Under the pieces are notes generated by a model. That model was given only the letters and a program-made list of their open reading frames with translations, was not told the DNA's origin and did not search any database. DNA of 48,656 nucleotides from Nitrosomonas sp. (lineage in GTDB: Bacteria; Pseudomonadota; Gammaproteobacteria; Burkholderiales; Nitrosomonadaceae), in contig JAJFJL010000123.1 of the NCBI GenBank assembly GCA_021774055.1, positions 1-48,656 on the forward strand, in the 5' to 3' direction. Made by a program: the position numbers and the translations under genes. Below, in pieces: positions 5,728-46,357 of this stretch (position 1 is the stretch's first letter; the number at the start of each line of letters is the position of its first letter).

Positions 5728-7263
5728 ATGAGTCTATTTAAAAACCTTGCTGCTGTTAGCAGTATGACATTTATATCACGAATTCTTGGTTTTTTACGAG
5801 ATGTGCTAATCGCTAGAACTTTTGGTGCAGGTATGGCAACAGATGCTTTTTTTGTTGCTTTTAGAATACCTAATTTATTACGTCGATTATTTGCAGAAGG
5901 TGCTTTTTCTATTGCTTTTGTTCCAATCCTTGCAGAATATAAAAATAATAAAACAGCAGAAGAAACGCGCAGCTTAATTGATCATGTTACTCAATTATTA
6001 GCTATAGCATTATTTGTAGTGACACTGGTAGGTATTGTAGCTGCGCCTTTGATTATTTATGCCAGCGCACCTGGTTTTTCAGCTAACCCGGAGAAATTTG
6101 CTCTAACAGCTGAATTATTACAGATTACCTTTCCTTATATCTTCTTTATTTCACTTGTATCACTGGCCGGTGGTATTTTAAATACATATGGGAAGTTTTT
6201 TGTCCCTGCATTAACGCCAGCGTTATTAAATTTATCTTTTATTGCTTGTGCTTTGTGGCTGGCGCCGTTATTAGATCCGCCGATTTTAGCCTTGGCATGG
6301 GCGGTATTTATTGGTGGTGTGTTGCAACTTGCGTTTCAAGTTCCTTTTCTTATTCGTATCAAAAGATTTCCACGGTTACGTTTTCGATCAGAAGATCAAG
6401 GCGCTTGGCGTGTTCTTAAACAAATGGGACCGGCTGTATTTGGTGTGTCTGTTGGTCAAATCAGCATGTTAATTAACACTATCTTTGCCTCATTATTGGT
6501 TAGTGGTAGTGTGTCATGGCTTTATTATGCAGATCGTCTAATGGAATTCCCTGCAGGTCTACTAGGTGTTGCTTTAGGAACAGTGTTATTACCTTCTCTA
6601 GCACGCCACTATTCCAGCCATAGCACTGCTAAATACTCGCAATTATTAGACTGGGGCTTACGTCTGACAATATTGCTGACACTCCCAGCTGCATTAGCCT
6701 TAGCCTTGTTAGCAACACCACTAATCACAACTTTATTTCATTATGGTGAATTTACAGCTAATGATGTATGGATGACACGTGATGCATTAATTTCATACAG
6801 TGTTGGGTTGTTGGGATTAATTTTAGTAAAAGTATTGGCGCCAGGTTTTTATGCCAGACAGAATATTAAAACTCCCGTAAGAATTGCAGTAGTTACGCTT
6901 GTCGCGACACAATTAATGAATCTTGCTTTCATCATACCGTTGCAACATGCTGGGCTAGCATTAGCAATTGGCTTGGGGGCTTGCATAAATGCAGGATTGC
7001 TTTATTACAAACTACGTAGCCATAAGATTTATCAACCACAGCCAGGGTGGCTAGTTTTTTTTATGAAAATATTAATCGCATTAGCTGTAATGGGAACAAC
7101 CTTATGGTTTATTAGTGGTAGTGACATTTCCTGGCTAGCCGATTCTGCCTCTAATCGTGCACTTCAATTAACCAAAGTGATTATCATCGGGGCTGCCAGT
7201 TATTTTATTGCGCTATGGGTGCTTGGTTTTCGTTTACAAGACTTTACCCTGCAACCTGACTAG
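5728..7263 (+). CDS. murJ: Lipid II flippase MurJ
   Basis: Polytopic protein with SRILGFLRDVLIARTFGAGMATDAFFVAFRIPNLLRRLFAEGAFSIAFVP. Confidence 0.95.
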   Translation: MSLFKNLAAVSSMTFISRILGFLRDVLIARTFGAGMATDAFFVAFRIPNLLRRLFAEGAFSIAFVPILAEYKNNKTAEETRSLIDHVTQLLAIALFVVTLVGIVAAPLIIYASAPGFSANPEKFALTAELLQITFPYIFFISLVSLAGGILNTYGKFFVPALTPALLNLSFIACALWLAPLLDPPILALAWAVFIGGVLQLAFQVPFLIRIKRFPRLRFRSEDQGAWRVLKQMGPAVFGVSVGQISMLINTIFASLLVSGSVSWLYYADRLMEFPAGLLGVALGTVLLPSLARHYSSHSTAKYSQLLDWGLRLTILLTLPAALALALLATPLITTLFHYGEFTANDVWMTRDALISYSVGLLGLILVKVLAPGFYARQNIKTPVRIAVVTLVATQLMNLAFIIPLQHAGLALAIGLGACINAGLLYYKLRSHKIYQPQPGWLVFFMKILIALAVMGTTLWFISGSDISWLADSASNRALQLTKVIIIGAASYFIALWVLGFRLQDFTLQPD

Positions 7264-7426
7264 TGCCTTGCACGCTAAATAACCAGGAAAATATGGGGGA
7301 TGCAAAAATTGTCGAGAACAAGGCGAAGAAGCACCGGCATATTGAGCATACGGCAAGTTTCTTCAACGCAGTTATCGGCAATTTGTGCCACAGATTTTCC
7401 TGGTTATTTAGCGTGCAAGGTACTAG
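7260..7426. repeat. Family A MITE-like element (copy A1)
   Basis: 33-bp terminal inverted repeats (one mismatch): ctagtgccttgcacgctaaataaccaggaaaat ... attttcctggttatttagcgtgcaaggtactag. Second, inverted copy at 13281-13450. Confidence 0.85.
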
Positions 7427-7458: not shown

Positions 7459-7618
7459 AGGAACGTGCATGAAATAAATTAGGCAACTAGCTTTGTATTT
7501 AAGCCCATCTTCTGCGTTGTGCAAACAGTTACATAGCCGTGCTATGCGCCTGTTTACACGCCTTGAATATGAACATAAATCCTGCGCTAGTTGCCTAATT
7601 TATTCCATGCACGTTCCT
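7459..7618. repeat. Family B MITE-like element (copy B1)
   Basis: Terminal inverted repeats aggaacgtgcatg(g)aataaattaggcaact ... agttgcctaatttattccatgcacgttcct; second copy at 43801-43986. Confidence 0.85.
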
Positions 7619-9161: not shown

Positions 9162-9233
9162 CGTCATTCCTGCATGTTTTTAGCTGTAATCCAAGCTGAT
9201 GTGGATTCCTACTAAAAACATGCAGGAATGACG
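9162..9233. repeat. Hairpin-forming intergenic repeat (CGTCATTCCTGCATG type)
   Basis: cgtcattcctgcatgtttttag ... ctaaaaacatgcaggaatgacg inverted repeat. Confidence 0.7.
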
Positions 9234-13280: not shown

Positions 13281-13450
13281 CTAGTATCTTGCACACGCTA
13301 AATAACTAGGAAAATCTGTGGCAAGAATTGCCGATAATTGTGTTGAAGAAACTTGACGTATACTCAATATGCCTGCGTTTCTTTGCCTTGTTCTCGACGA
13401 CTCTTGCAACTCCCCATATTTTCCTGGTTATTTAGCGCACAAGATACTAG
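13281..13450. repeat. Family A MITE-like element (copy A2, inverted relative to A1)
   Basis: ctagtatcttgcacacgctaaataactaggaaaat ... attttcctggttatttagcgcacaagatactag; interior matches the reverse complement of A1. Confidence 0.85.
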
Positions 13451-27624: not shown

Positions 27625-27642
27625 AGGTTTATTTTTGGTGGG

Positions 27643-27943
27643 TGAAGCTGGCCGATAAGCCGGGTTTTGTCGTGGACAGTCATTCATCTAGGCATATTGT
27701 TACCAATATGCTCAAGCAACCTACCCGCAGACTCAGCGAGCCGCATCAAAGCCTGCCTATTTGGTTTTGCTCCGGATGGAGGTTGCCGCGTTTCACCGTA
27801 ACTAAATACGCTCGTCTCTGTGGCCCTATTCCTCACCTCACGGCGGTCGGTCATTAGCCGACACCCTGCTCTATGGAGCCCGGACTTTCCTCCCCTCATT
27901 TCCCATTACTAGAAAATAAGCGGCGACTGCCTGGCCAGCTTCA
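27643..27943 (-). ncRNA. rnpB: RNase P RNA component, class A (compact)
   Basis: Minus strand: GAAGCTGGCCAGGCAGTCGCCGCT...GGGGAGGAAAGTCCGGGCTCCATAGAGCAGGGTG...CTCCATCCGGAGCAAAACCAAATAGG...GGGTAGGTTGCTTGAGC...GCCTAGATGAATGACTGTCCACGACAAAACCCGGCTTATCGGCCAGCTTCA. Confidence 0.97.
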
Positions 27944-39216: not shown

Positions 39217-40491
39217 CTAAAGCTTGTTTTTTTGTGCTTGGCTTTCTAGCAAGTGAACGTAACGTGGCAACACATCAACACCTCCAACATCTAGAATTTC
39301 ATTTAAGAATTGTTGTCGGTGTTCCTCAACATAGAATGAATCGTAGCCATTGGATAAAAAGTCATCAATTTTAATATAAACATCATCTCGACACTTTAAT
39401 TCAGTTTCAGGCATATAGCTTGCAATTGTGGAGCGGCCTGCATGTAAGTAATCGGCTGCTAATACAGGTTTCTTCTGTCTAACAGCTTCAAATACAACAG
39501 AAGTAGCAATATCTATAATAATATCAGCCCAATTCATTAAATGTGCCGAATGTGCGTTATCTTTTGCAATGCTTACGTTCGTTAAACGTTGTATTGCTTT
39601 GTCTTTGGTAAGAGATTGTTTCCAGCCGCTACGGGTATGAGGTTTTATAATTAATTCTACATTTGGAAAAGCTGAAATCATTTGAGTCACTTCACCAACC
39701 TCTTCCCAGAATGTGGTGAAATTATCTTTTCTAAGAAACATCACGATTTTCAAGCGAGTATCAGATTTTGTTAAAGGTGAGGGTGGTAATATTTCTGCTA
39801 ATTTAGGCAACCATTCTTCACAAAAGCGTGGTGATCCTAGCACTGCAATTGATTCGTCGTTTAAAAATGGACGAAAACGTTTAGCACATAGCTCATTGGG
39901 TACAACTAACTTATCGAAAATCTTAGCTGTAGAAAATAAAGTATCTGGTTCAAGAGATCGTTCGCCACGTCGTATCAATTGATTTGCATGAGGACTATCT
40001 CCATGTGGCAGTGATACTGTACCCAGCCCTCTATCGCGTGCCATAGCAACAACTATTTCTACCCATTCAACACAGATAACTGAGTTTCTTTCAATCCAAT
40101 CAAATGCAATTACACCATTTTGTTGATTATCAAAGCTTCTTGTTAGTAACTTACTTGCAGTATGGCGCCATAATGGTTCTCGTTTTTCAGCATGGAATTT
40201 ATCTGCCAGTTTACTTATTAACGGGCCAATAAATAAACGTCGTAAATTACGAGTTAATAGCAACATCTGCAGTCGCCATTTTATATATTCTAATAATGAA
40301 AATAGTTCGCGAATATGAGTAACTCTGACACCTTTCAGTTTACTTAGAAATTGAACACGAAAGTCTTTACGAAATTTTATTGAGCCAATTAGTACAACAT
40401 CACATTGATGCCCAGAACCAACCCACTTGGAAATAATCGGGGTAATATGATCAATATCATTGTAATGGCGAAGGAAGAAGAGTGCTTTCAT
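39217..40491 (-). CDS. Predicted surface-polysaccharide/CDP-glycerol-type transferase-like protein
   Basis: MKALFFLRHYNDIDHITPIISKWVGSGHQCDVVLIG; GTVSLPHGDSP; LIIKPHTRSG; two-domain glycosyltransferase-like organisation; next to GT2. Confidence 0.45.
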   Translation of the reverse strand: MKALFFLRHYNDIDHITPIISKWVGSGHQCDVVLIGSIKFRKDFRVQFLSKLKGVRVTHIRELFSLLEYIKWRLQMLLLTRNLRRLFIGPLISKLADKFHAEKREPLWRHTASKLLTRSFDNQQNGVIAFDWIERNSVICVEWVEIVVAMARDRGLGTVSLPHGDSPHANQLIRRGERSLEPDTLFSTAKIFDKLVVPNELCAKRFRPFLNDESIAVLGSPRFCEEWLPKLAEILPPSPLTKSDTRLKIVMFLRKDNFTTFWEEVGEVTQMISAFPNVELIIKPHTRSGWKQSLTKDKAIQRLTNVSIAKDNAHSAHLMNWADIIIDIATSVVFEAVRQKKPVLAADYLHAGRSTIASYMPETELKCRDDVYIKIDDFLSNGYDSFYVEEHRQQFLNEILDVGGVDVLPRYVHLLESQAQKNKL

Positions 40492-40525: not shown

Positions 40526-40712
40526 TGGGAATATACATGAAACAACTAGGGGTAACTTACTTTGTATTTATATTACCTAGATCCTGCAAGCAATAGTGTA
40601 TATCGTGCATATAATGTGTTACACATTATATGCACGATATACACTATTGCTTGCAGGATCTAGGTATTAATTTTCTACGTTATGCAAACAGTTACCGCGC
40701 GAAGTATAAATA
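40526..40712. repeat. Relic of a family B-like element interrupted by the family C palindrome
   Basis: gaatatacatgaaacaactaggggtaacttactttgtatttata [40574-40666] ttctacgttatgcaaacagttac aligns with B1 gaacgtgcatgaaataaattaggcaactagctttgtatttaagcccatcttctgcgttgtgcaaacagttac; right flank ends gcgcgaagtata as in family D. Confidence 0.6.
40574..40666. repeat. Perfect 93-bp palindrome (family C), 46-bp arms, 1-nt centre
   Basis: tacctagatcctgcaagcaatagtgtatatcgtgcatataatgtgt-t-acacattatatgcacgatatacactattgcttgcaggatctaggta; arms are exact reverse complements. Confidence 0.95.
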
Positions 40713-40863: not shown

Positions 40864-42372
40864 TCAGTGTGTATTATTAAGTTGTTCAGGGGCTTCAATG
40901 GGCCACGGTGTTGCAACACTAAAACCTTGCGCATAATCAACACCAATTTCATTTAGTTTGTCCATTACTTTTTCATTTTCAACAAGTTCAGCAATTGTTT
41001 GAATATTATGTGAGTGTGCTACTTGATTAATAGTTGTGACCTTCTCTAACTCGCTGTTATCACGTAAAATATTACATATTAAACTGCCGTCAATTTTAAT
41101 AAAGTTGATATCCATTTGTTTTAATAAATCGAAAGCAGCGCGACTATGATTAAAACTACATAATGAAACTTGGCAGCCTAACCTACGCATTTCTTCAGTA
41201 AATAGTAAACTGGCTGGAAGATTAGAAAATACATCTGCCTCCTCAATTTCAAAACTAATTAAGCCAGGATCTATTTTTGTTTTTTGTAATTGATCTTGGA
41301 CAAATTTTTGAAATCCGATATTATTAATTGTACTCTTGCCTACATTTACAGAACATATTGTTTCTTCATTTGTTTCTCTCTTTACGATCCATTTTATAGT
41401 ATGTTCAACAACCCAGCAATCAAGACGTGGCATTAAATTATATTTTTCGACGAAAGGTAGAAACGCACCAGGTGGTAATAAATTACTTTCTTCCTCAGTC
41501 ATACGAAGCAAAATTTCATGTTGCATCGGTAATGTTGAATCTGATTTAACAGGAATAATGCTTTGACAATAAAGTCGGAATTCACCACCTTCAATTGCTT
41601 GCACAATATGAGCTGCAGATATCCCTGAGGCTGTTGAAATATTTTTTTTGGGTGCAATAATTTTTGTTGCTTGATCTCCTGGTGGCAAAAATGTTGGTTT
41701 GTCCACATCATGTTTAGTAAGTACACGACTTTTATTCGGAATTCGTGGAGTATATAGAGCGTAGAAACCAATAACTTTTCTTTTGTTGTCGAAATGAGGA
41801 ATGATTTGTTCAGCAAGATGATACTGTGAGCCTTTAGCAGATTTTTGTACAAGCTCATTAAATATAATTTTGCCCGCCAATATATCTTTGATGCAAGTTT
41901 TAATTGTTAGGCAAAATTCTGGGCTTGAAAACTCCTGTATAAAACGGCCATTAATCTGATTTGAACTTAAGCCAAACCATTTTCGATATGCTTGGTTGTG
42001 ATAGCGACAGCGTTGTGAAACATTAAAATATGCAAATAATATTGGTAAATTCTCATCAACAACTTGTAGCCGTACTCTACTTTCAGATGTTGTTTTTTCA
42101 GCCCAATGGCGGTGTTTTATTTCATTAATTAATCGTTCTTTAGAGGTGACGAGTTGTTTTGTACTTTCATTAATTTTTTTGGTTACTAATATAATTTGGC
42201 CAATCAAAATAAAGTTAGTTATGACCAGCGTTCCCCATAATCCCATAATTAATTCTGGAGCCATTTTTATATTTAAAAAATACTCCGCAACAAGAAGTGC
42301 TGTTACTACAATAGCTAATGTTATAGCAAGGTATGGTTTGATTATCTTGTTAAATGTTAAAATTTTTTGCAT
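40864..42372 (-). CDS. Membrane PAS-EAL protein with degenerate EAL motif
   Basis: HEILLRM, SVNVGKSTIN, FEIEEADVF, CSFNHSRAAFDLLKQMDINFIKIDGSLI, AELVENEKVM, YAQGFSVATPWP. Confidence 0.88.
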   Translation of the reverse strand: MQKILTFNKIIKPYLAITLAIVVTALLVAEYFLNIKMAPELIMGLWGTLVITNFILIGQIILVTKKINESTKQLVTSKERLINEIKHRHWAEKTTSESRVRLQVVDENLPILFAYFNVSQRCRYHNQAYRKWFGLSSNQINGRFIQEFSSPEFCLTIKTCIKDILAGKIIFNELVQKSAKGSQYHLAEQIIPHFDNKRKVIGFYALYTPRIPNKSRVLTKHDVDKPTFLPPGDQATKIIAPKKNISTASGISAAHIVQAIEGGEFRLYCQSIIPVKSDSTLPMQHEILLRMTEEESNLLPPGAFLPFVEKYNLMPRLDCWVVEHTIKWIVKRETNEETICSVNVGKSTINNIGFQKFVQDQLQKTKIDPGLISFEIEEADVFSNLPASLLFTEEMRRLGCQVSLCSFNHSRAAFDLLKQMDINFIKIDGSLICNILRDNSELEKVTTINQVAHSHNIQTIAELVENEKVMDKLNEIGVDYAQGFSVATPWPIEAPEQLNNTH

Positions 42373-42430: not shown

Positions 42431-42514
42431 AACCTAGGCCTTGCAAGTAATCATGCGTATAGTGGTAACAATACGTTGTGCAAAATGTGTATGATCATTT
42501 GCAGGGTCTAGGTA
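42431..42514. repeat. Family C element, 84-bp class
   Basis: aacctaggccttgcaagtaatcatgcgtatagtggtaacaatacgttgtgcaaaatgtgtatgatcatttgcagggtctaggta. Confidence 0.8.
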
Positions 42515-43664: not shown

Positions 43665-43722
43665 ACTAGACCCTGCAAATGATCATGCATATAGCGTGTA
43701 TGATCATTTGCAGGGTCTAGGT
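43665..43722. repeat. Family C element, ~55-bp class
   Basis: ctagaccctgcaaatgatcatgcatat-agc-gtgtatgatcatttgcagggtctag. Confidence 0.8.
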
Positions 43723-43800
43723 GGTAATTCCAAGAGATATATAAATATACTTTCTGAAGCAATATATTGTGCATTCTAGCTTGTTTTTTTAATCATTACA

Positions 43801-43986
43801 TAGGAACGTGCATGGAATAAATTAGGCAACCATCTTTGTATTTAAGCTCATCTTCTGCGTTATGTAAATAGTTACATAGCCGTGCTATGTGCCTGTTTAC
43901 ACGCCCCCGTATCAAGTACGGGGCAGGCTTTGAATATGAAGGTAAATCCTGCGCTAGTTACCTAATTTATTCCATGCACGTTCCTA
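43801..43986. repeat. Family B element (copy B2) with nested mini-palindrome
   Basis: taggaacgtgcatggaataaattaggcaac ... gttacctaatttattccatgcacgttccta; interior carries ccccgtatcaagtacggggcagg, absent from B1. Confidence 0.85.
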
Positions 43987-44008
43987 TGGTTTTATATGTC
44001 GATTGCTA

Positions 44009-44173
44009 TACCTAGATCCTGCAAGTAATCGCACACATACTGCACAACAGATTGTTCCATATAGCAAATCTTATTCTTTGGGAATATCAATAAGTATTCC
44101 ACGCAGAATAAGATTCACTCTATGAAACAATTTGTTACGCATTATATGCACGATTACCTGCAGGATCTAGGTT
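44009..44173. repeat. Family C element, full-length class (~165 bp)
   Basis: tacctagatcctgcaagtaatcgcacacatactgcacaacagattgttccatatag ... ctatgaaacaatttgttacgcattatatgcacgattacctgcaggatctaggtt. Confidence 0.85.
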
Positions 44174-44220: not shown

Positions 44221-44252
44221 TTAAACCTAGATCCTGCCGGACCTAGGTTTAA
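44221..44252. repeat. Family C minimal remnant (32 bp)
   Basis: ttaaacctagatcctgccggacctaggtttaa. Confidence 0.65.
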
Positions 44253-44889: not shown

Positions 44890-44973
44890 AACCTAGATCC
44901 TGCAAGTGATCTGTATATAGTGTGTAACAATTTGTTGTGCAAAATGCGTGGGATTACTTGCAGGATCTAGGTT
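44890..44973. repeat. Family C element, 84-bp class
   Basis: aacctagatcctgcaagtgatctgtatatagtgtgtaacaatttgttgtgcaaaatgcgtgggattacttgcaggatctaggtt. Confidence 0.8.
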
Positions 44974-46318: not shown

Positions 46319-46357
46319 CAAAAGCCAGGTCATTACAGTAATGACCTGGCTTTTTTA
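46319..46357. terminator. Bidirectional intrinsic terminator between icd and cold-shock gene
   Basis: aaaagccaggtcattacagtaatgacctggctttttt. Confidence 0.88.

Follow-up and report, generated by a model that had tools for sequence, protein, structure and literature searches.

How does an exact palindrome of 93 bp come to lie in a bacterial genome, and does it stay there for a reason? The sequence concerned occupies positions 40574-40666 of a 48,656-nucleotide stretch of Nitrosomonas DNA, referred to here in its entirety as the window. An initial sequence-only reading had described arms of 46 bp around a centre of 1 nt, and this was confirmed by direct reading of the sequence, by a repeat search of the window and by a scan for exact arms. 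The repeat search returned slightly longer arms (40571-40619 and 40621-40669) that are 98% complementary and 1 nt apart. Shuffling the window 20 times gave no exact arm near a centre beyond 11 bp, and the runner-up within the window itself has arms of 17 nt. This second palindrome (46320-46354, 17-bp arms) lies directly 3' of an isocitrate/isopropylmalate dehydrogenase gene, and may be a terminator.

The strand of the 93-bp palindrome folded alone as DNA gives a single 45-bp hairpin with a free energy of −52.6 kcal/mol (z = −18.5), and the corresponding RNA fold has −79.1 kcal/mol (z = −17.4). On each side the outermost 2 bp of the 46-bp arm fall within a direct repeat, TATTA, that flanks the element. 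This leaves an element of 89 bp, CCTAG...CTAGG, with arms of 44+1+44, and its features are as follows.

40576-40664, no strand: 89-bp perfectly palindromic MITE copy (CCTAGATCCTGCAAG...CTTGCAGGATCTAGG); arms 40576-40619 and 40621-40664, centre 40620
40571-40575, plus strand: left target-site duplication (TSD) TATTA, from the sequence and the family-wide 5-bp duplication
40665-40669, plus strand: right TSD TATTA, from the sequence and the family-wide 5-bp duplication
40576-40590, plus strand: left terminal inverted repeat CCTAGATCCTGCAAG
40650-40664, minus strand: right terminal inverted repeat (CTTGCAGGATCTAGG on the plus strand)
40617-40623, minus strand: centre TGT-A-ACA, a small inverted repeat at which a template switch is proposed

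Short-read assemblers have trouble with palindromes, and this genome is fragmented (3.07 Mb in 256 contigs, 84% complete), both of which would favor an assembly artefact, i.e. a foldback or a collapse of the arms. We consider such an origin very improbable. A foldback is unlikely because the left and right flanks are unrelated unique sequences, and because the junction repeat TATTA/TATTA is direct and not inverted, as the TSD of a transposon must be, and is of the kind that flanks the other copies. Furthermore, 93 bp fits inside one ordinary read length.

The palindrome belongs to an abundant MITE family

The earlier assignment of the palindrome to an interspersed repeat family is supported. 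Using the ends of the family as a pattern, we found 237 forward and 242 reverse matches in the genome (approximately 480), against none for a reversed-pattern control. Pairing of the ends shows that the usual copy is 161 bp long with the terminal repeat CCTAGATCCTGCAAG, which is found at both ends of the 89-bp and the 161-bp copies. Most copies lie between 32 and 164 bp and hold no transposase gene; internally deleted forms of 80-81 bp are common, and there are short forms of 32-57 bp. Six copies are located in the window, all between 40.5 and 45 kb, the palindrome being accompanied by the following.

44011-44171, plus strand: full-length 161-bp MITE copy
42433-42512, plus strand: 80-bp internally deleted MITE copy
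44892-44971, plus strand: 80-bp internally deleted MITE copy
43665-43721, plus strand: 57-bp short hairpin MITE copy
44226-44247, plus strand: 22-bp MITE remnant, two terminal repeats nearly touching

Exact 5-bp duplications flank 32 of 56 copies in this genome and 44 of 71 in other genomes, where shuffling of the partners gave means of 4.5 and 2.9 respectively. No comparable signal was obtained for other duplication lengths in the flanks of either set. Almost without exception the exact duplications take the form TNNNA with an A/T-rich interior. Since the exact duplications exceed the shuffled null, the family is a transposed element, and with its terminal repeats, fixed 5-bp TSD, short length and many copies it is a MITE. 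The high copy number and hairpin shape are also what would be seen if a RAYT (HUH) transposase had mobilised a REP/BIME-type palindrome. Yet REP elements lack both the clear 5-bp TSDs and the true terminal inverted repeats found here, and the usual copy is 161 bp rather than 20-40 bp, making that alternative exceedingly improbable.

It had been stated that the other copies are imperfect. This holds only in part: the genome also contains a perfect 32-bp copy, and several copies of 55-57 bp (C234, C188, C148 and C251) are asymmetric only beside the centre.

Individual copies show further rearrangement. Locus L055 contains a 252-bp copy (556-807) with another inverted repeat nested in its right part. 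At approximately 1501-1530 of L265, in genome G172, the MITE end CCTAGATCCTGCAAGTGATC runs directly into TAGG; this very short remnant is an extreme internal deletion of the MITE. Pairs of ends 0.3-3.5 kb apart were also found. Those that we read closely hold host genes, neighboring MITEs or an inserted repeat, with no transposase between the ends.

The window contains other repeats. A second dispersed inverted-repeat family (7459-7618 and 43799-43988) has arms AGGAACGTGCATG[GA]AATAAATTAGGCAAC... of 54-57 nt that are 81-83% complementary, and a third (CGCTAAATAACCAGGAAAAT...) is present in two copies (7260-7426 and 13296-13437). A hairpin at 9162-9233 begins CGTCATTCCTGCATG, and we take it to resemble the widespread proteobacterial CGTCATTCC repeats. 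The Rfam search of the window gave a bacterial class A RNase P RNA (27640-27942, minus strand, 247.5 bits) and nothing else.

The ends are of the IS1380 type

ISEcp1 has the left repeat (IRL) CCTAGATTCTACGT, and generates 5-bp duplications (PMC10101111). The MITE terminal repeat resembles this IRL. Matches were also found in gammaproteobacterial loci. L218 encodes an IS1380 transposase (339.5 bits to NF033539) within an element that has ends CCTAAATTCTGCA and the TSD TTTAA. L236 is a decayed relative of this transposase (63% identity over 121 aa), with an end CCTAAATCCTGCAAGTA (also given as CCTAAATCCTGCAAGTAG) located downstream at a distance from the gene equivalent to that in L218; 16 of the 18 bases of CCTAAATCCTGCAAGTAG are as in the MITE consensus. 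Lastly, genome G299 contains a MITE copy (L263) of which one end is exactly CCTAAATTCTGCA, i.e. the L218 end, and which also has the TSD TTTAA. Judged by sequence, the family has IS1380-type ends (ISEcp1 type), because the ends together with the 5-bp duplication match those of L218, L236, ISEcp1 and L263; the assignment covers the ends and is not proof of a partner.

From these ends, the MITE family was most likely moved in trans by an IS1380-family transposase. Searches of the Nitrosomonas genome itself (84% complete) gave no IS1380 transposase. The MITE-rich genomes yielded none whose ends match, and there a search with the L218 transposase returned distant relatives only. Multi-copy insertion sequences are often missing from short-read MAGs. 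PF13701 transposases do occur in MITE-bearing genomes, but without the MITE ends, and were rejected as partners. A weak PF13701 match in the Nitrosomonas genome (L074) reads as an IS4-like fragment, with no MITE ends within the locus. In an even sample of the class, IS1380-type transposase matches occur in 70 of 369 genomes overall, and in three (G172, G299 and G323) of the four others with MITE ends, although these are small numbers.

Distribution of the family

The 161-bp unit was present in just one (G019) of 36 other Nitrosomonas genomes searched. By contrast, exact matches to the 22-nt MITE end were obtained in numerous gammaproteobacterial MAGs from sediment and marine sources, including Sedimenticola, Ectothiorhodospiraceae, SZUA-152 and SZUA-51. 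A further exact match is in one record labelled Polarisedimenticolaceae, where contamination of the MAG is possible. The 20-nt end pattern was found in only 4 of 368 other genomes of the class sample, and a plasmid search with the 161-bp unit gave no match. Among 37 MITE copies outside Nitrosomonas, 14 have A at position 5 of one end. The family is thus carried by distantly related proteobacterial MAGs while being nearly absent from sister Nitrosomonas genomes, and this patchy distribution suggests that it has spread horizontally.

Origin of the perfect symmetry

In the 161-bp consensus the two arms, L and R, can be distinguished, with 22 of 80 pairs mismatched. In the 89-bp copy the two arms are both R-type, with 35 identities in 44 aligned columns, and resemble L in the terminal repeat only. 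They have in common a T-to-C change and a 9-nt insertion, the extra nucleotides being such as an imperfect duplication of CGTGCATAT would leave (AGTGTATAT joined to CGTGCATAT). Two R arms cannot result from a simple deletion within an L-R element, so one arm must be a copy. That one arm was copied onto the other, as had been suggested at the outset, is therefore the most likely explanation.

The minus strand of the 89-bp copy keeps to R, including GTGTAACA, to a point beyond the centre; it follows R through ATAATGTGTAACA and then reverses. TGT-A-ACA, a small inverted repeat, lies within the R consensus stretch ATAATGTGTAACAAATTG and coincides exactly with the palindrome centre. This turn point has only 3 bp and is weak. 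The three bases that match beyond the centre could be due to chance, at about 1 in 64 per strand.

We think it probable that the palindrome is an IS1380-type MITE copy that was made perfect in place by a replication template switch. A single template-switch event can make perfect hairpin stems (PMC8794818). In the following scheme the template switch, when and in what order it took place, and the enzyme that moved the element are inferred. A non-autonomous IS1380-type MITE copy inserted with the 5-bp TATTA duplication. Replication through the R arm would subsequently have reached TGT-A-ACA, where synthesis could turn back, using either the nascent strand or the sister template, and copy the R arm backwards. 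The terminal repeat at the other end of the element, which matches, would then let synthesis return to the first template. The outcome would be deletion of the middle and replacement of the L arm by the R arm, leaving both target duplications intact.

Alternatively, the palindrome might have been complete before the element transposed into this site, having arisen at another place in the same genome or in a different one. Some short hairpin copies (C34, C251, C188 and C234) have intact TSDs of 5 bp, so that short palindromic forms may be mobile. Against this, no second copy of the arm with its 9-nt insertion was found; the best others in the genome are approximately 75% identical or partial. 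We regard arrival in the perfect form as unlikely, and formation in place as the better explanation.

The symmetry looks recent, as had also been proposed. None of the 44 pairs in the 89-bp copy is asymmetric, whereas the arms of full-length copies differ at 9.3% of terminal-repeat pairs. If the copy were of average age the probability of this would be approximately 0.014, a value that is indicative only, as the copies are related and the most symmetrical long copy was chosen beforehand. The absence of asymmetries suggests that formation of the palindrome was recent.

Several of the 55-57-bp copies could also be interpreted as hairpins of an arm with itself, with turn points such as CAT-ATA-ATG. 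A stronger proposal, which we hold to be rather doubtful, is that the family repeatedly yields perfect short palindromes, as a normal by-product of its quasi-palindromic architecture, and that these may stay mobile, as a self-renewing class of single-arm hairpins.

Location and possible function

The palindrome lies between two minus-strand genes, an EAL gene (40864-42372) and ORF2 (39217-40491), and the insertion is upstream of the latter. The EAL gene and ORF4 adjoin across the genus, but in none of the relatives examined was ORF2 found next to them; the closest homologue of the EAL gene, approximately 55% identical, is also without it. On this gene order the insertion sits at a lineage-specific junction. 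With ORF2 located differently, these relatives offer no definable empty site.

This location between two minus-strand genes, together with the very high stability of an RNA hairpin, might suggest a selected regulatory hairpin, e.g. a terminator, an RNA processing site or a protein-binding palindrome. Yet the 89-bp element is a typical family copy with a TSD. Moreover, full copies show no overall arm-to-arm correction, contrary to a maintained symmetry. Concordant deviations of the arms number 26 in copies of this genome against 22.7 for the null, and 7 against 24.4 in other copies, so that homogenisation of arms across the family is not supported except around position 17. A regulatory role is scarcely credible on these grounds, and the palindrome probably has no selected function beyond that of a passive hairpin.

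Stability of the palindrome

The premise that a 93-bp palindrome requires special tolerance in the host finds no support. Palindromes of approximately 100 bp are generally maintained. Studies of SbcCD in Escherichia coli use as standard a palindrome of 246 bp, for which cleavage and repair carry a fitness cost of approximately 0.6% per generation (PMC6061781). No length threshold for toxicity was found in the literature searched. A check for sbcC and sbcD gave a divided result in this genome, which at 84% completeness makes an absence uninformative. An SbcD-like phosphoesterase is present, but at 47.5 bits it falls short of the SbcD cut-off (77.65), so canonical SbcD was not detected; however, this gene is followed by a reading frame that by its sequence is of an SbcC-like ATPase type. 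Canonical SbcD scored above the cut-off in only 6 of 37 genomes searched. A palindrome of 93 bp implies no unusual host tolerance.

Comparison with known systems

The palindrome is a short member of a MITE family with very many copies, and as such an instructive but fairly ordinary scar of a mobile element. The series of sizes (161, ~81, 55-57, 32 and 89 bp) provides a readable record of quasi-palindromic mini-transposons shrinking into perfect hairpins, and could serve studies of template switching and of the stability of palindromes in a nitrifier.

The element is of a known kind, an IS1380-type MITE, and this member carries a perfect palindrome probably derived by template switching. Elements of the IS1380 family (ISEcp1 group) likewise have terminal repeats that start CCTA[GA]AT[TC]CT and a 5-bp target duplication, but the element in the window is just 89 bp, lacks a transposase and has subterminal sequence unlike that of ISEcp1. 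Bacterial MITEs such as MITEAba12 are similarly short and non-coding with inverted terminal repeats, TSDs and many copies, whereas the present family is quasi-palindromic from end to end and gives rise to derivatives that are perfect palindromes; no match to its terminal sequence was obtained in the literature searched. REP/BIME elements are also dispersed palindromes in intergenic DNA, but REPs have no TSDs and are much shorter. A parallel to the proposed conversion is with the quasipalindrome template-switch mutations of E. coli (PMC7202029) and with hairpin-creating switches (PMC8794818), where one event starting at a short inverted repeat also turns an imperfect palindrome into a perfect one. 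The 89-bp case differs in that it is deduced from sequence only, lies inside a mobile element, and would involve a second switch at the terminal repeat.
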